Shown here: one piece after another, positions 31,037 through 39,860 of the stretch
How positions within the stretch are numbered: the first letter of the stretch is position 1
Layout of the letters: every line of letters begins with the position of its first letter
From: Paenibacillus herberti
Lineage (GTDB): Bacteria; Bacillota; Bacilli; Paenibacillales; Paenibacillaceae
DNA: 64,000 nucleotides
NCBI RefSeq assembly: GCF_002233675.1
Contig: NZ_NMUQ01000001.1
Span: 568,680 to 632,679, forward strand
Direction of reading: 5' to 3'
Program-made: the position numbers and the translations under genes
The notes under the pieces: model-generated
Seen by the model: only the letters and a program-made list of their open reading frames with translations
Databases searched by the model: none
Told to the model about the DNA's origin: nothing

Positions 31037-33322
31037 ATGGCAAATAATCCGATACAAAGCAATACCATTAAGCGAATCAAAATGAGGACCGTTGTTGTCG
31101 GAGGGGTGATTACCCTCCTTTTTCTTATTTTGATCAGTCGTGTTTTTTATGTGCAGGTCGTGCAGGCGGATTTTTGGCTCAGCGAAGCCAAAGCAATCTG
31201 GAAGGAACAGGATACGATTCCGGCGGAGCGCGGTACGATCAGTGATCGCAAAGGAAATATGCTCGCGATGAACATCCCGGCTTATACCGTCGTGGTCAAT
31301 CCTAAGCTGCTGAATGAGCTTGGAATCGCGGAAGAGGCGGCCAAGGGGCTGGCCGAATTGCTCGGCAAGTCGGAGCAGGAAGTGCTCAAGCAGACAACCA
31401 TGAAGAACAGCAAAGGGGAGTATTTGCAGTACCGGGAGCTTCGTCCGGAGGGCTGGAATATCGATAAGGCTAAGGCGGACAAGGTAATCGCTTTTCGGGA
31501 TAACCTCAAAAAAAGCTATGAGGAGCGTACGGATATAAAGATCCGCAACACGGGCATTACACTGAATGAAGGCTCCAAGCGTTTTTATCCAAACAATTCG
31601 CTGGCAGCTCATGTTCTGGGGTATGTGAACAAGGAAGGCGCTCCAGTTATCGGGCTTGAAGTCGACTTCAATAAACAATTGGAGGGGCAGGACGGCAAAG
31701 TCGTTTATGAAAAGGACGGCAACCGCGTTCAGCTCGCTAACGGCAACGCCCAACTGGTTCCAGCTGTGGACGGAAGTGATATCCAGTTGACGCTGGATTC
31801 AGAGATTCAGAACTATTTGGAAGTGGCTATGAAAAAGGCCTACGAAAAATACGAGCCGAAAAGCATTACCGCTATCGCCGCCGATCCCAATACAATGGAA
31901 ATTCTGGCTATGGGCAATATGCCAACTTATAACCCTAATGAGTACTCCAAATCCAATGTAGGCAACTTCTTCAACCATGCCATTGGATCGACCTACGAGC
32001 CGGGCTCGACGTTCAAAATCATTACGTTAGCAAGTGCGGTTGAGGAAGGCAAGTTCAACCCTAATGCGACGTATAAGTCTGGATCAATTGTCGTTACAGG
32101 CACAAGAATTAGCGACGTTAACACCGCTGGATGGGGCACAATTTCCTATTTGGAAGGACTTAAACGCTCCAGTAACGTCTCTTTTGTCAAGCTTGGGCTA
32201 GAGCAGTTGGGTAAAGAGAAGTTGGTTAACTATTTTGAAAACTTTGGATTCGGCAAGCGGACGGGCATTGAGCTGAAAAACGAAGTCAAAGGTACATTGA
32301 ATATTAATTATCCGTTCGAAGTAGCGACTTCTACGTTTGGACAAGGGGTTGCCGTCACGCCGATCCAACAGATCGCTGCGGTCGCTGCGGTAGCAAACGG
32401 CGGCAAGTTGATGAAGCCGCATATCGTCAAATCCATTAAAGATCCAGCTACCGGCAAGGTGACGGAGACAAAGCCGGAGATGGTGCGGCAGGTCATTAGC
32501 GCCGAAACTTCTCGCAAGGTGGGCGGATACTTGGAGCAGGTTGTCTCTGACAAGGAAATAGGCAGCGGCCGGAATGCGGCGATTCCCGGATACCGGGTCG
32601 CCGGCAAAACCGGTACGGCGGAGAAATCAGACGGCGTAGGATACTCAAAGGATGAATACGTCGTTTCCTTCATCGGTTATGCACCTGTGGAAAACCCGAA
32701 AATCGTCGTTTATGTCACTGTTGACTCACCGAACAACCCGATGGTCAGCGGCGGCACGGTTGCTGCTCCGGTGTTCAAAGAAATTGTTAGCCAAAGCCTA
32801 CGCTATATGGGTGTGAAGCCTGACGCGAAGGCCGTTAAGGATGGGGGCAAGCAAGGCACGCAGACCGTTCCTGATCTGAAGAATAAGGGAATCCAGGAGG
32901 CGCAAGCCGAGCTCAAGTCTCGCGGCATGGCGTCCAAGGTGGTCGGTAAGGGGACGAAGGTGCTGCTGCAGATCCCGGCAGCCGGTGCGGTGTTGGCCGA
33001 GAGCCAGCAGGTCTATCTGTTGACGGAGGAGCAGAGCAAGCTCACCTTGCCTTCGCTAGTCGGCTTGTCGCTTCGCGATGCGTTGCAAGTTTGCTCCTCA
33101 ACGGGCAAGCGCTGCGTGACTGAGGGAGATGGCTACGTCGTGAAGCAAATGGATGCGAAGCTGAATGGCGAACCAGTTGTCAAGCTGACTCTGCAGTCGC
33201 CAAGTGAGCAGCAAGCGGCGAAGGATGCTGCGCTGAATGCAGAGAAGAACGATGATAGTGTGAATGAGGGTAAAGATAAGGACACAGAGAAGGGCACGGA
33301 GCAGAACCAGGACACAGAGTAG
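31037..33322 (+). CDS. pbpB: Penicillin-binding protein 2B-like transpeptidase
   Basis: A 761-residue class B PBP that cross-links septal peptidoglycan. It has an N-terminal transmembrane anchor (VGGVITLLFLILISRVFYV), a dimerisation domain and a transpeptidase domain with the catalytic Ser in GSTFKI near residue 324, SSN near 377 and KTGTAEK near 524. Two PASTA domains follow (TVPDLKNKG onward and TLPSLVGLS onward). The last 40 residues are acidic and low in complexity, ending in the sequence EQNQDTE encoded by a degenerate 18-bp tandem repeat. The stop codon TAG lies inside that repeat, at a position where other units read CAG. Confidence 0.94.
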   Translation: MANNPIQSNTIKRIKMRTVVVGGVITLLFLILISRVFYVQVVQADFWLSEAKAIWKEQDTIPAERGTISDRKGNMLAMNIPAYTVVVNPKLLNELGIAEEAAKGLAELLGKSEQEVLKQTTMKNSKGEYLQYRELRPEGWNIDKAKADKVIAFRDNLKKSYEERTDIKIRNTGITLNEGSKRFYPNNSLAAHVLGYVNKEGAPVIGLEVDFNKQLEGQDGKVVYEKDGNRVQLANGNAQLVPAVDGSDIQLTLDSEIQNYLEVAMKKAYEKYEPKSITAIAADPNTMEILAMGNMPTYNPNEYSKSNVGNFFNHAIGSTYEPGSTFKIITLASAVEEGKFNPNATYKSGSIVVTGTRISDVNTAGWGTISYLEGLKRSSNVSFVKLGLEQLGKEKLVNYFENFGFGKRTGIELKNEVKGTLNINYPFEVATSTFGQGVAVTPIQQIAAVAAVANGGKLMKPHIVKSIKDPATGKVTETKPEMVRQVISAETSRKVGGYLEQVVSDKEIGSGRNAAIPGYRVAGKTGTAEKSDGVGYSKDEYVVSFIGYAPVENPKIVVYVTVDSPNNPMVSGGTVAAPVFKEIVSQSLRYMGVKPDAKAVKDGGKQGTQTVPDLKNKGIQEAQAELKSRGMASKVVGKGTKVLLQIPAAGAVLAESQQVYLLTEEQSKLTLPSLVGLSLRDALQVCSSTGKRCVTEGDGYVVKQMDAKLNGEPVVKLTLQSPSEQQAAKDAALNAEKNDDSVNEGKDKDTEKGTEQNQDTE

Positions 33323-33426
33323 GGACGGGTAGAGCCAGGACAGAGTAGACCGGGACGCAGAGCAGAACCGGGACACAGAGCAAAACCGGGACACAGAGTA
33401 GAACACGGGAGCAGAACCAGGATCAA
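33299..33426 (+). repeat. Degenerate 18-bp minisatellite across pbpB stop
   Basis: About eight units of the type GAGCAGAACCGGGACACA, several shortened to 11-17 bp, run from the last codons of pbpB into the spacer. Some begin GAGCAG and others GAGTAG. The pbpB stop is one of the GAGTAG variants. If the TAG were read through, the frame would stay open to a TAA at 33434. Confidence 0.8.
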
Positions 33427-33480
33427 AGGCAGTTAATTACAACGGCGCTCCGCGCTGACTGACGGGACATTAACCGCTGC

Positions 33481-33603
33481 GCGGAACGGACCCTCCTTCC
33501 GATTCACTGGAGCCCAGATTCCTTTGATTCCAAAACCCCTAACGGGGTAGGAATCCGGCCTCCAAGAGAAGCGCTGCCGCTTCTCCAGGAGCGTTCCGTC
33601 CGC
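33481..33603 (+). repeat. Long imperfect hairpin, about 123 nt
   Basis: Outer arms at 33481-33496 and 33588-33603 pair in 12 of 16 positions. Middle arms GGAGCCCAGATTCC (33509) and GGAATCCGGCCTCC (33550) pair in 11 of 14. The tip is ACCCC-TAAC-GGGGT. A short extra stem AGAAGCG-CTGC-CGCTTCT lies on the 3' side. No coding potential. Confidence 0.55.
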
Positions 33604-33635
33604 TCCGCTTCCCGGTCCCGTAAAAACTCGTCTCT

Positions 33636-33754
33636 CCCCTATTTTTTAGGGGTACGGCTCACTCCAGCTTCGCTTCTGGAGCCCGCCGTACCCGCGCTTC
33701 GCGCGGTGAAGGTGCTTCGGCTTGCGAGGTCGCTGCTCCGTAAGCGACCCAAGC
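33636..33754 (+). repeat. Cluster of four consecutive perfect hairpins
   Basis: In order: CCCCTA/TAGGGG (33636-33652), GGTACGGC/GCCGTACC with inner CTCCAG/CTGGAG (33651-33692), CCGCGC-TTC-GCGCGG (33692-33706), and GCTTG/CAAGC enclosing GGTCGCT/AGCGACC (33720-33754). The stems abut one another, which looks like a folded RNA rather than chance. Confidence 0.65.
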
Positions 33755-34202
33755 TAAGGATCACGATATCCTTGCGGGTTAGACTTTTCTGTCGCACCAT
33801 CAATCTTGGCTACTCTACTGCTCCTTGTAAGGCTTAAGCTACTTCATCGCCGCATACGGGCGAGGTCATTCCCTAGCCACTGAGTTACTCAGTCGCTTAC
33901 GAAGCAGTGAGCCGCAGGCCCAAGCTTAGCTTGTATAGTCAGTAGCTTAGCTCGTAAGCAGTGGGCTTTCGGCAGCTCGTTCCGGCGCTTACCCCCAAAT
34001 ATGTTGTGAGAGCCGAATATTATAACTATTCGGGCTTTTGAATAATTTGAAAGCCCGTAGAGCGTGACTGCGGGGGCCAGGTACCTTGGCTTGGCATACT
34101 TGCTTAGCTCGGAACAGTACAGCAGTACAGACATTGCTCTTGCAAGCCCGCAGCAGAGCGGCGGGGCGAGCTTTTGCCGGAGCATCAAGCGACGGCACGC
34201 CA

Positions 34203-34474
34203 GCCGCGCTAAGCGGCCTGCCGCCTTCCAGGTGTTCGGAAGGCGGCACACCCCCCAATAAAAAATGGGGGGATAGTAGAGTCGGTCCATGGGAGGGGTT
34301 GTGACGGTGAAGCGAAGCGGGCCGAAGCCTTCCGTAGAAGCGGAAGCGGTCCTCTTGGAAGTCGGATGCCTACACATTAATGTGTTAGGCGATCAGGCAT
34401 CCGAGTTCCAGAGGGATCGGAGGAAGGCTCGGCCCGCGCAGCGGAGTTCCGTTGCAGCCACTCCCATAACCTCC
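34203..34474 (+). repeat. Tandem repeat copy 1, about 272 bp
   Basis: Begins GCCGCGCTAAGCGG and is followed immediately by a second copy about 95 percent alike by eye. It contains two short hairpins and a 121-nt stem-loop at 34317-34437. In the long stem, GCGGGCCGAAGCCTTCC pairs with GGAAGGCTCGGCCCGC (one bulge) and CCTCTTGGAAGTCGGATGCC pairs with most of GGCATCCGAGTTCCAGAGGG. Confidence 0.85.
34219..34272 (+). repeat. Two hairpins at head of repeat copy 1
   Basis: TGCCGCCTTCC pairs perfectly with GGAAGGCGGCA around an 8-base loop. CCCCCC then pairs with GGGGGG around AATAAAAAAT. The second repeat copy has the same pair with small changes. Confidence 0.65.
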
Positions 34475-34745
34475 GCCGCGCTAAGCGGCCTGCCGCCTTC
34501 CAGGTGTTCGGAAGGCGCACACCCCCAATAAAAAATAGGGGGATAGGAGAGTCGGTCGATGGGAGGGGTTGTGACGGTGAAGCGGAGCGGGCCGAAGCCT
34601 TCCGTAGAAGCGGAAGCGGTCCTCTTGGAAGTCGGATGCCTACACATTAGTGTATTAGGCAATCAGGGCATCCGAGTTCCAGAGGGATCGGAGGAAGGCT
34701 CGGCCCGCGCAGCGGAGTTCCGTTGCAGCCACTCACATAAGCTCC
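34475..34745 (+). repeat. Tandem repeat copy 2, about 271 bp
   Basis: Second copy of the unit at 34203-34474, with its long stem-loop at 34587-34708. Differences from copy 1 include single-base indels, so the apparent 63- and 80-codon frames in the two copies do not stay in register. This argues that the unit is not protein-coding. Confidence 0.85.
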
Positions 34746-34854
34746 CATAAGCTCACACAGCGCGTTCTACCAACGAACGTTTCCGAATAGGGTAAACATG
34801 TACGGACAGACTCTACCTGTCCACCCTAGAACGAAGCGAGAGGGGAACAAGCGG

Positions 34855-36813
34855 ATGAAAGTGTCCAATGTCACCTTGCGCCGCCGTCTGTTCTTGGCGC
34901 TGGTCGTTGTCATCATCGGCTTCAGTGCGCTGATCGTACGGCTGGCCTACGTACAGCTGGTAAGAGGCGGCGAGCTATCCGCCAAAGCGGAAGACAATTG
35001 GCGTCGCGAGGTTGCATTTGCTCCCCGAAGGGGCGATATTACCGACCGGAACGGCGAGAAGCTTGCCTATAACGTGAGCTCACCCACGATCGTGGCGATT
35101 CCAGTCCAGATCAAGGACAAAGAAGGGACCGCACGCAAGCTGGCGCCCGTGCTTGGCATTTCCGAAGAGAAGCTGCTCGGCTTACTCAAAAAAGAAGAGA
35201 AGAGCGTTTTCATCAAACCGGAAGGCCGCAAAATTACGCTGGAAAAGGCGATGGAAGTTCGCAAGCTGGAGCTGCCGGGCATCGTTGTGGCGGAGGACAA
35301 CAAACGCTACTATCCGTTCGGTGAACTGGCAGCGAGCATCATTGGCATTACCGGTACCGATGCTGGATTAACCGGCGTGGAGAAAAAGTATGACGACCGT
35401 CTGAAAGGTGTCAGAGGCAGCGTATCCTATTTGTCAGACGCCAGGGGACATACGATGCCGGGCTCAACCGACAAGCTCGATGAGCCGAAGAATGGATTGA
35501 ATTTGCAGCTGACAATTGATCGGCAAATTCAGAGCATTATGGAGCGCGAGCTGGACCAGGCGATGACCAAGTACAAACCGAATAACGCCATCGCCATCGC
35601 GATGGACCCCAATACCGGCGAGGTGCTCGGCATGGCGAGCCGTCCGACGTTCGAGCCGGGCAACTACAACGCGTATCCATCCGAGGTGTATAACCGCATT
35701 TTGCCAATCTGGATGACCTATGAGCCAGGCTCTACTTTCAAGATCATCACGCTGGCAGCAGCATTGGAAGAGGGCAAGGTTAATCTCAAGAATGAGCGGT
35801 TCTTTGACCCCGGTGCGGTAGAGATCGGCGGCGCACGGTTGCGCTGTTGGAAAAAGGGCGGTCACGGCAGCCAAACGTTCCTGGAAGTTGTACAAAATTC
35901 ATGTAACCCGGGCTTTGTTGCGCTGGGCAATCGGCTTGGCAAAGACACGCTATTCAAGTATATTAAGGACTTCGGCTTCGGCAAGAAAACCGGTATTGAC
36001 ATCAGCGGCGAGGGGAACGGAATTCTGTTCAAACCAAGCCAGGTCGGCCCGGTGGAGCTGGCGACAACGGCCTTCGGGCAAGGGGTCTCGGTAACGCCGA
36101 TCCAACAGATAACGGCGGTGTCGGCGGCGGTTAATGGCGGTACGCTCTACAAGCCGCATTTGACTAAGGCCTGGACCAATCCAGAGACTGGCGAGGTTGT
36201 GGAGCGGATCCAGCCGGAACCGGTACGCCAGGTCATTTCTGAAAAAACGAGCGCCCAAGTAAGGGAAGCGTTGGAGAGCGTCGTGGCACTCGGCACGGGC
36301 GGCAACGCCTTTCTTGACGGCTATCGCGTCGGTGGTAAGACGGGGACGGCACAAAAAGTCATCAACGGCAGATATTCCACGAGTGAGCATATCGTTTCGT
36401 TCATTGGCATCGCACCTGCCGACAATCCACGCATTGTTGTATACGTAGCGATCGACAACCCGCAGGGCATCCAGTTCGGCGGCGTCGTTGCGGCTCCGAT
36501 CGTAAAGGGGATTTTGGAAGACTCGCTGCAATATATGGGCGTGCCCAAGAGCTCCAAACAAATCGGCAAAAAATACAAGTATGGAGAAACGACGATGGTG
36601 ACGGTGCCGAATCTCGTCGGCAAGACGGTATCGGACATTTACGAGGACATGAACATGAACTTCAATCTTGTCTCCGCCGGCAGCGGTAATACGGTTATCC
36701 GCCAAGCCCCGGCAGCGGGAGAGAGGGTGGATAAAGGGTCGACGATCCGCATCTATTTAGGGAGCGACGCCGACCTGCCGCCTGCAGCAAGCGGAGATGG
36801 ACACAGCCATTAA
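34855..36813 (+). CDS. spoVD: Stage V sporulation protein D (class B PBP)
   Basis: A 652-residue transpeptidase needed for spore cortex peptidoglycan, acting with SpoVE in the outer forespore membrane. The ATG at 34855, after GAGAGGGG, gives the typical start MKVSNVTLRRRLFLAL; an in-frame ATG at 34798 would add 19 residues. One N-terminal transmembrane anchor, a dimerisation domain, then catalytic Ser in GSTFKI near 293, SCN in the SxN position and KTGTAQK near 495. A single C-terminal PASTA domain (TVPNLVGKTVSDI to RIYLGSD) separates it from PBP2B. It is preceded by the hairpin-rich spacer and followed by murE. Confidence 0.95.
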   Translation: MKVSNVTLRRRLFLALVVVIIGFSALIVRLAYVQLVRGGELSAKAEDNWRREVAFAPRRGDITDRNGEKLAYNVSSPTIVAIPVQIKDKEGTARKLAPVLGISEEKLLGLLKKEEKSVFIKPEGRKITLEKAMEVRKLELPGIVVAEDNKRYYPFGELAASIIGITGTDAGLTGVEKKYDDRLKGVRGSVSYLSDARGHTMPGSTDKLDEPKNGLNLQLTIDRQIQSIMERELDQAMTKYKPNNAIAIAMDPNTGEVLGMASRPTFEPGNYNAYPSEVYNRILPIWMTYEPGSTFKIITLAAALEEGKVNLKNERFFDPGAVEIGGARLRCWKKGGHGSQTFLEVVQNSCNPGFVALGNRLGKDTLFKYIKDFGFGKKTGIDISGEGNGILFKPSQVGPVELATTAFGQGVSVTPIQQITAVSAAVNGGTLYKPHLTKAWTNPETGEVVERIQPEPVRQVISEKTSAQVREALESVVALGTGGNAFLDGYRVGGKTGTAQKVINGRYSTSEHIVSFIGIAPADNPRIVVYVAIDNPQGIQFGGVVAAPIVKGILEDSLQYMGVPKSSKQIGKKYKYGETTMVTVPNLVGKTVSDIYEDMNMNFNLVSAGSGNTVIRQAPAAGERVDKGSTIRIYLGSDADLPPAASGDGHSH

Positions 36814-38322: not shown

Positions 38323-39860
38323 TTATACGCAAGCTCAGTGTTATCGCCGGAATGAGTTCGGGCCGGATGGGGCCCGGTTACATAGACGCGCCCGAGGAAG
38401 CCGCGGAGGGACAGGGGCTCACTCAGGGCCCGTCCCCCCAAGGCTGGAGAGATATTCTCGTAAAGGGTGTAACGACGGACTCCCGACGCGCGAGCGAAGG
38501 GCAGTTGTTCGTTCCGCTGTCCGGCGATTCGTTCGACGGCCACGACTATGTGGAAGCAGCTTTTCGGCAAGGAGCCGCCGCTGCGTTCTGGAGCCTTGAT
38601 CGGGAGCTGCCCGCCGCGCTGGCTGGCAAACCGCTCGTACTGGTGGAGGACCCGCTTGAGGCGCTCCAGAATTTGGCAGCTGCCTACCGTAGCGAGCTCA
38701 AGACGGTTGTGGTCGGCATTACCGGAAGCAACGGCAAGACGACAACGAAGGATATGACAGCAGCCGCACTCGGCTCGGTTATGAGGGTGCATAAAACGGC
38801 TGGAAATCTCAATAATCATATCGGCTTGCCGATGACGGTATTGGCGTTGGCGGAAGACACCGAGGCAGCTGTGCTGGAAATGGGCATGAGCGGCCTGCGC
38901 GAAATCGCGCTGCTCACGGGAATTGCCAAGCCTGATATCGCCATCATCACGAACATCGGTGATGCGCATTTGCTGCAGCTCGGTTCGCGGGAGATGATCG
39001 CCCGCGCCAAGATGGAGATCGCCGAGGGGCTGAAGCCCGGCGGTCTGCTGCTCGTTAGCGCAGATGAGCCGCTGATCGCGGCGGAGCTGGCGCGAGCTAC
39101 ATTGCCGGAGGGCGCACAAGTTCGCACCTTCGGTGCTTCTCCGCGCAGCGACTGGCGCGCAGGCGGCATCGAGGTGGGCGCGGAATCTTGCGCCTTTACC
39201 GTGAAGGCTGGACCGGCCTCCGGTTTCCGGCTTGGCCCCATTCCAGTGGCACACTTAGCGGAAGGCTGCGATGCAACAGGCGAGTGCTTCCCGCAAGTTA
39301 CCATCGAGATTCCGGTACCTGGCGCGCATAATGTGTATAATGCACTGGCGGCAATCGCCGCTGCGACCGCCTGCGGCGTACCAGCGGAGGCGATTGCCTC
39401 CGGCCTGCGCACGATGCAGCTGACCGGCATGCGCATCCAGCCGGTCGCCGCCTCTTGCGGCGCAATGATTCTCAATGACGCCTACAACGCTAATCCCACG
39501 GCGGTACGCGCTGCGGTTGATCTGGTCGCCGGGCTGACCGGCTACCGGCGGAAGTGGATTGTGCTCTCCGACATGCGGGAGCTGGGCGAGACGGAGCAGG
39601 AGCTGCATCGCGAGACGGGAGCATACATTACGCCGGACAAGGCGGATGCCGTGCTCACTTGTGGTGAGATGTCGGCCTTTACCTCTGCTGGAGCTGCAGC
39701 GTCCTTCGGAACGCTGGCGGCGGAGGCGGTACGCCATTTTGCTTCGCAAGAGCTATTGATTGAAACGTTAAGCGCGGAGCTGGACGCCAGAGATCTGGTG
39801 CTTGTCAAAGGCTCCCGCACGATGCATATGGAAAGGGTCGTAGAAGCGCTGCAGCGTTGA
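38319..39860 (+). CDS. murF: UDP-MurNAc-tripeptide-D-Ala-D-Ala ligase MurF
   Basis: A 513-residue Mur ligase that adds D-Ala-D-Ala to complete the UDP-MurNAc-pentapeptide. ATP loop GITGSNGKTTTKDM near residue 135, then KTAGNLNNHIGLP and EMGMSGLREI, both MurF signatures. NDAYNANPTAVRAAVD marks the C-terminal domain. It is longer than many MurF proteins because of an N-terminal Gly/Pro-rich stretch (residues 12-45) and a middle insertion near 290-310. The TTG start overlaps the murE stop, which implies coupling. Confidence 0.95.
   Translation: MIIRKLSVIAGMSSGRMGPGYIDAPEEAAEGQGLTQGPSPQGWRDILVKGVTTDSRRASEGQLFVPLSGDSFDGHDYVEAAFRQGAAAAFWSLDRELPAALAGKPLVLVEDPLEALQNLAAAYRSELKTVVVGITGSNGKTTTKDMTAAALGSVMRVHKTAGNLNNHIGLPMTVLALAEDTEAAVLEMGMSGLREIALLTGIAKPDIAIITNIGDAHLLQLGSREMIARAKMEIAEGLKPGGLLLVSADEPLIAAELARATLPEGAQVRTFGASPRSDWRAGGIEVGAESCAFTVKAGPASGFRLGPIPVAHLAEGCDATGECFPQVTIEIPVPGAHNVYNALAAIAAATACGVPAEAIASGLRTMQLTGMRIQPVAASCGAMILNDAYNANPTAVRAAVDLVAGLTGYRRKWIVLSDMRELGETEQELHRETGAYITPDKADAVLTCGEMSAFTSAGAAASFGTLAAEAVRHFASQELLIETLSAELDARDLVLVKGSRTMHMERVVEALQR

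Follow-up and report, generated by a model that had tools for sequence, protein, structure and literature searches.

In the genome of Paenibacillus herberti, the genes pbpB and spoVD are separated by 1,475 bp of hairpin-packed DNA, whereas the same spacer measures ~45–120 bp at most of the Paenibacillaceae loci examined. This raises the question of what fills the spacer and whether the inserted material bears on spoVD. The window, namely the whole stretch of 64,000 nucleotides that was analysed, and the corresponding loci of related genomes lead us to consider it very probable that the island represents the insertion and local expansion, within an originally short spacer, of a non-autonomous mobile hairpin repeat specific to the Paenibacillales.

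The spacer carries three copies of an imperfect hairpin of ~137 nt, one on the minus strand and two in tandem on the plus strand (Table 1). The L-type copy is inverted with respect to the R-type copies, with arms at 33547–33617 and 34573–34643 that are 79% complementary, and the two R units, each with a stem-loop of ~135 nt, are 95–97% identical where they align gap-free. The small hairpins that begin at 33636 include CCCCTATTTTTTAGGGG as well as an 18-nt stem at 33650–33693, and counterparts of the hairpins beside the L copy adjoin other copies in the window genus. The middle of the spacer, between the small hairpins and the tandem units, is less structured. A sequence-only reading of the island had reported a long imperfect stem-loop, a run of small hairpins and a tandem repeat with one stem-loop per copy, all of which proved real, as did the absence of a plausible gene from the spacer, where the longest open reading frame (162 aa) runs antisense across the repeats. 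The 18-nt tandem repeat that follows pbpB is expanded in the sister species. The best named SpoVD matches are 89–91% identical and place the window species near P. pasadenensis and P. humicus.

Table 1. Features of the pbpB–spoVD region, in coordinates of the window
Feature	Position	Strand	Evidence or remark
pbpB (penicillin-binding protein 2B homologue)	31037..33322	+	ORF, 761 aa; tblastn anchor for spacers
Degenerate 18-nt tandem repeat (ACCGGGACACAGAGCAGA)	33323..33426	+	Repeat search; prolongs the low-complexity end of pbpB
Core hairpin, L-type copy	33474..33610	-	Covariance model, 138 bits
Small hairpins beside the L copy	33611..33760	.	Include a C4/G4 stem with T/A loop (33636-33652)
Terminator-like stem-loop, then GCTTTTG	34013..34033	+	The island has no other such site; 1.6 in shuffled sequence
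R unit 1 (271 bp)	34203..34474	+	GCCTTCC/GGAAGGC hairpin, then C5-A6-G5 hairpin, then core
Core hairpin, R-type copy 1	34310..34444	+	Covariance model, 144 bits
R unit 2 (271 bp), tandem duplicate of R unit 1	34475..34745	+	
Core hairpin, R-type copy 2	34580..34715	+	Covariance model, 151.6 bits, top score in the genome
Candidate spoVD leader	34760..34857	+	TTCTA...CCGAATAG...hairpin...GAGAGGGG, ATG; distinct from the repeats
spoVD, from the conserved ATG	34855..36813	+	ORF and conserved start; the ORF can be opened upstream, from 34798

When folded in windows of 150 nt, the island has a mean energy of −58.4 kcal/mol, compared with −41.1 (s.d. 10.9) over the 64 kb, that is, 1.6 standard deviations under the overall mean, and the most stable of all 1,277 windows starts at 34301. 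The density of stems had been described as far above that of any other spacer; it is indeed extreme, though not unique in the 64 kb, with GC-rich coding stretches at 39001 and 41751 approaching the stability of the island.

Close relatives differ widely at this site. The sister species has a spacer of 3,410 bp with three L and five R copies, assembled as one contig, and P. pasadenensis MER37 has a spacer of 628 bp with one L and one generic copy, whereas the array is absent from P. pasadenensis DSM 19293 (81 bp) and P. humicus (89 bp). Between the window and the sister, the cores are 96–97% identical (97.1% for the L core), compared with 78–93% for the stretches that adjoin the cores and 78–86% for the flanks of the L core; one interior stretch is unalignable, and spoVD is 94% identical over its first 300 nt. 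The site is therefore old in three species, with preserved cores and an unstable number of copies. Gene conversion among copies could contribute to the similarity of the cores. That many copies are common to the sisters, with cores conserved above the surrounding spacer, could reflect a host function rather than mere tolerance. In P. mendelii and P. gorillae (L057, L061), pbpB–spoVD spacers of ~0.9 kb are filled with different, unrelated repeats, indicating that the spacer has expanded independently several times.

The long stem-loops of the island are copies of one dispersed family, which is far larger than could be seen from the window. A covariance model of the core (137 positions, 35 pairs) finds at least 26 copies in the genome of the window species (E<1e-4), and BLAST finds 40 places there, approximately the first 20 of which are significant; these counts come from lists of search candidates and are lower bounds. 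Further copies were detected by BLAST in all seven of the other genomes sampled from the window genus, while the search across the family, which the sequence-only reading had called for, matched 223 of the 300 sampled genomes (E≤1e-4). A single-contig genome of 7.26 Mb from another genus (G209) holds at least 147 copies. Within the order, the core occurs in number in two families only, with one weak single match in a third, and the 32 positive genomes in a sample of 349 Bacilli all belong to the same two families. The collection of plasmids searched holds no match for the island repeats. Near-invariant stretches mark the core, chief among them AGAAGCG..AGCG (5′ side) and ATCGGA (3′ side).

Copies elsewhere adjoin unrelated genes in both orientations. 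In G209, 57 of 60 copies are intergenic, with 20 in convergent spacers compared with 5 in divergent ones, and the tandem spacers contain 20 sense and 12 antisense copies, which is no significant orientation preference; this placement does not look like that of an orientation-dependent regulator. The same genome has four head-to-tail copies near 914700 and again near 3361097, spaced by exactly 177 bp. In the genome of the window species, one R copy lies between arrays of two other short tandem repeats (L148 / L028, C12:510000–512200), and a c-di-GMP-I-GGC riboswitch adjoins a repeat copy at another locus (L219, 83–159, minus strand).

Covariation within the core was measured on 93 distinct copies. 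Standard pairs occupy 91.1% of the pair cells, and two-sided compensatory changes are observed in 28 of the 35 pairs (553 cells). The covariation score reaches 0.484, whereas shuffling gives 0.164 and sliding the partner no more than 0.114. Among the pairs that are mostly Watson–Crick, G–U is found 143 times and A–C 42 times, with 18 positions favouring G–U and 7 favouring A–C, counts that derive from copies that are kin and from an alignment that had been fitted to the model. If the core acted solely as a DNA cruciform, G–T and A–C should be equally frequent, since each is the other on the opposite strand. The excess of G–U over A–C rather suggests selection acting on the folded RNA of the model strand. 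A structured non-coding RNA had been among the original proposals for the island, and the very strong covariation, beyond its controls, together with the G–U asymmetry renders this plausible for the repeat core, with both the transcript and its role as RNA being predicted from sequence.

Terminal inverted repeats are present on copies of three classes, A, B and C, in the genome of the window species and in others. Class A copies in the former end with CTATATAAGTTGAACT, and one of them (L138) is missing from two relatives, where the site is empty. The empty site reads GAAG-CTAG-TTCAAGATATGG in the sister, compared with GAAG-CTA[element]TAG-TTAAGATATGG when filled, an alignment that identifies L138 as an insertion at CTAG with duplication of TA, which is established behaviour for IS630 elements. 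A complete IS630-family element of ~1.17 kb in the same genome (L178, C13:250876–252050) has the same ends, such that class A displays both the TA duplication at CTAG and the identity with resident ends that mark an IS630-mobilised, RUP-like repeat. L178 contains two overlapping transposase ORFs, which are probably read by frameshifting. Its subterminal sequence has no similarity to the core and the covariance model does not match it; the interior of the repeat is not an internal deletion of this autonomous element, an origin that is usual, although not universal, for MITEs. Like a MITE, the repeat is short and non-coding, with a core of 137 nt, units of ~200–270 bp and no transposase gene.

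The other two classes have distinct ends. Class C copies in G209 are bounded by GGCTCTAAACC...TTGAGCC with 8-bp duplications, where 5 of 16 copies match at seven or more of the eight positions, compared with 0.4% of mismatched pairs, and class B copies (G347, G366) end differently again (GAGGCCACTGAAAAA; AAGTCCGGTGAATAA). The search for an autonomous partner of class C in G209 yielded none, the only ISL3-type gene being broken and having surroundings that lack class C ends; for class B in G366 no transposase was identified, nearly all paired ends enclosing hairpins. The identity of the core is 58–75% between classes and 72–96% within a class. Because the core is common to the classes while the ends are not, we infer that it has changed transposon shells; carried within at least three unrelated end types, it behaves, on this comparison, as a module. 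The L and R copies of the window itself have no recognisable terminal repeats or target duplication, and their route of insertion is therefore deduced from relatives. Dispersed copies, differences in copy number between sisters, empty sites and target-site duplications together bear out the suggestion that the island belongs to an expanding family of palindromic elements. We also note a class B copy in G366 (L283) that lacks the hairpin apex but has both ends intact, as expected from palindrome slippage, and one intergenic site that is occupied in opposite orientations in two sister species (L145 in the genome of the window species, L172 in G007) and is empty in MER37.

An alternative regards the core as a functional RNA domain that is mobile, such as a host small RNA or RNA device, that is dispersed as cargo by transposases and selected for its function as RNA. 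The presence of the same core within unrelated ends would fit such a domain, as would the excess of G–U, the conservation of the core above its surroundings and the invariance of AGAAGCG..AGCG and ATCGGA. However, the copies have no systematic common neighbour genes that hint at a function, neither the island nor other copies, at ten loci, reach the gathering threshold of any Rfam family and the tandem spacers reveal no significant orientation bias. We regard this alternative as possible, if somewhat doubtful. Similarly tentative is the broader proposal of an RNA core, selected as a folded strand, that would travel across the order as the cargo of at least three end systems, reach up to ~150 copies per genome and, by inserting into operons, rewire read-through.

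Close inverted pairs of copies always have their 5′ ends facing inward (~20 pairs across eight or nine genomes, among which there may be orthologues), and the opposite arrangement was not found within 1.5 kb. In the window genus, each examined pair comprises one L and one R copy, except in MER37, where the partner is of the generic type. This inward-only pairing is not predicted by simple MITE insertion and counts against our main explanation; a composite unit, a constraint of viability or a hairpin-templated inverted duplication are possible origins. In the first of these, the (−,+) L–R pairs would bound a larger composite mobile unit with variable interior DNA, which is consistent with the constant composition and orientation of the pairs, and with interiors of 194–1148 bp, one of which encloses a complete small ORF. 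The interiors are, however, unrelated except for ~65 nt next to the copies, the pairs are not flanked by terminal repeats or duplications, and one pair in G209 (L196) joins copies of different end types, such that a composite unit appears unlikely. A transposon relic within the L–R pairs was rejected on the basis of the same limited sharing between interiors.

The sequence-only reading had also proposed a zone of processing or attenuation that would decouple spoVD from pbpB, a role in which the repeats would act here as cis-regulatory RNA. The higher identity of the cores than of the adjoining spacer between sisters (96–97% compared with 78–86% or unalignable), the strong RNA-like covariation and the presence of the array at this site in three related species are in line with this proposal. 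An intrinsic terminator or attenuator (GC-rich stem followed by a U-run) is represented at the repeats by only one weak site, which lies outside the cores, and the number of copies is unstable. Moreover, the absence of the array from P. pasadenensis DSM 19293 and P. humicus, the unrelated neighbours of copies elsewhere and the lack of orientation bias leave attenuation unsupported for the array. We therefore judge a regulatory role of the repeats at this site to be quite unlikely.

Control of spoVD is more plausibly sought downstream of the repeats. To judge from the comparison of loci, the last ~95 nt before spoVD are an ancestral conserved leader that is separate from the array, the latter having been inserted upstream of it. 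Upstream of spoVD, the Paenibacillaceae examined carry GCTTGTTCTA...GAATA..., where TTGTTCTA and GAATA are invariant (loci L046–L125), and the leader of the window is 98.9% identical to that of the sister. In predicted folds, the ribosome-binding region is engaged by the 5′ arm of the leader. Of 69 leaders, 68 have six or more of their initial 26 nt paired with the final 30 nt, as do 44% of shuffles, and 65 have at least 4 of the 6 Shine-Dalgarno bases paired. The mean energy z-score of the 69 leaders is −3.9, and the leader of the window folds likewise (z −2.6). These leaders were judged by single-sequence folding against shuffles; a sequence-based alignment misplaces the right arm and gives a meaningless consensus structure, and was left out. 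Rfam has no match to the leader at four other loci. We suggest that the leader is a candidate cis-regulatory RNA and may be the real control element of spoVD, acting on translation.

The spread of copies by a REP-associated tyrosine transposase (RAYT), as for REP/BIME elements, would accord with palindromic, intergenic, high-copy repeats that often form inverted pairs, but the copies measure 137–270 nt rather than 20–40, and their terminal repeats and duplications fit DDE transposases. The only Y1 transposase in the genome is an ordinary IS200/IS605 tnpA beside tnpB, with no copy nearby, and as this sole enzyme belongs to an ordinary IS605 pair, an origin through RAYT was rejected as highly improbable. 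Repeats and palindromes are prone to misassembly, and plain short spacers, once named as a sign of assembly noise, do occur in DSM 19293 and P. humicus, but the array recurs in the one-contig assembly of the sister and in MER37, the same elements are present in independent assemblies of many species, one of them single-contig, and covariation lies far above shuffles, so that we give an artefact or chance stem-loops virtually no credence.

Insertion and local expansion of the mobile hairpin repeat would then proceed as follows. Ordinary transposases would move the repeat in trans, as the IS630-family element with matching ends indicates for one class and as we infer for the rest. The core would owe its preservation to its folded RNA, which could help it to spread or make the host tolerate it, one example being a stable domain of untranslated RNA. 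A genus-specific pair, with one L and one R copy and the 5′ ends inward, would have entered the spacer in a common ancestor of the window species, the sister and MER37, and the paired form would subsequently have grown by tandem duplication. The array would be tolerated because spoVD keeps an intact conserved leader downstream, and its main local effect would probably be weaker read-through from pbpB.

The overall nature of the repeat is similar, but distinct, to that of several known systems. The repeats bcr1–bcr3 of the B. cereus group are described as high-copy and MITE-like in structure and function, often residing in UTRs or between operon genes, and other members of bcr1–bcr18 have a conserved RNA structure (PMC3446304; bcr1, Økstad 2004, cited therein). 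The present family is likewise composed of intergenic interspersed repeats limited to one group, whereas, compared by description, it differs in being confined to the Paenibacillus order, in reaching at least 147 copies and in placing one core within unrelated ends. RUP of Streptococcus pneumoniae is a 107-bp repeat with ends similar to IS630-Spn1 and is tied to that one IS (PMC3049150). Class A resembles RUP in its intergenic location, its TA duplication and the identity of its ends with those of an IS630-family element in the same genome, but its long covarying core is also present in copies with different ends and 8-bp duplications. Pneumococcal repeats are over-represented between convergent genes, which has been interpreted as parasitic, and the convergent-spacer enrichment in G209 resembles this pattern (PMC3049150). 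The BOX elements of S. pneumoniae are also modular structured repeats, transcribed in untranslated regions of operons (PMC3049150), but vary in their internal A, B and C boxes, whereas here the core is constant and the ends vary. QMITE2 of Coxiella burnetii, with a core of 113–145 bp, terminal repeats of 23–29 bp, duplications of 7–9 bp and a highly folded transcript, is near the class C copies in size; alternative ends on the same core and cross-species compensatory pairing, which distinguish the present family, are not reported for QMITE2 in the accessible part of its description (PMC10969869). REP/BIME elements with RAYT share intergenic palindromes and inverted pairs, but are of another size, with other ends and another type of transposase. 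The open literature yielded no description of a Paenibacillus repeat of this sort, most subscription journals lying outside the scope of the search; within the literature searched, a family that spans the order and sets one constant, covarying core between unrelated ends appears to be new, while the general kind, a MITE-like structured repeat such as bcr1 and RUP, is already known.

MITE-like repeats are usually viewed as the dead relics of one transposon. The constant core within changing ends makes it testable whether a structured RNA is the unit that persists while transposon shells change. The copies constitute non-coding sequence beside or inside operons in most of the sampled genomes of the family, which the covariance model would annotate. 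At the locus itself, the array explains the strong variability of the pbpB–spoVD spacer, apart from the conserved leader, which may control the translation of a sporulation wall enzyme.
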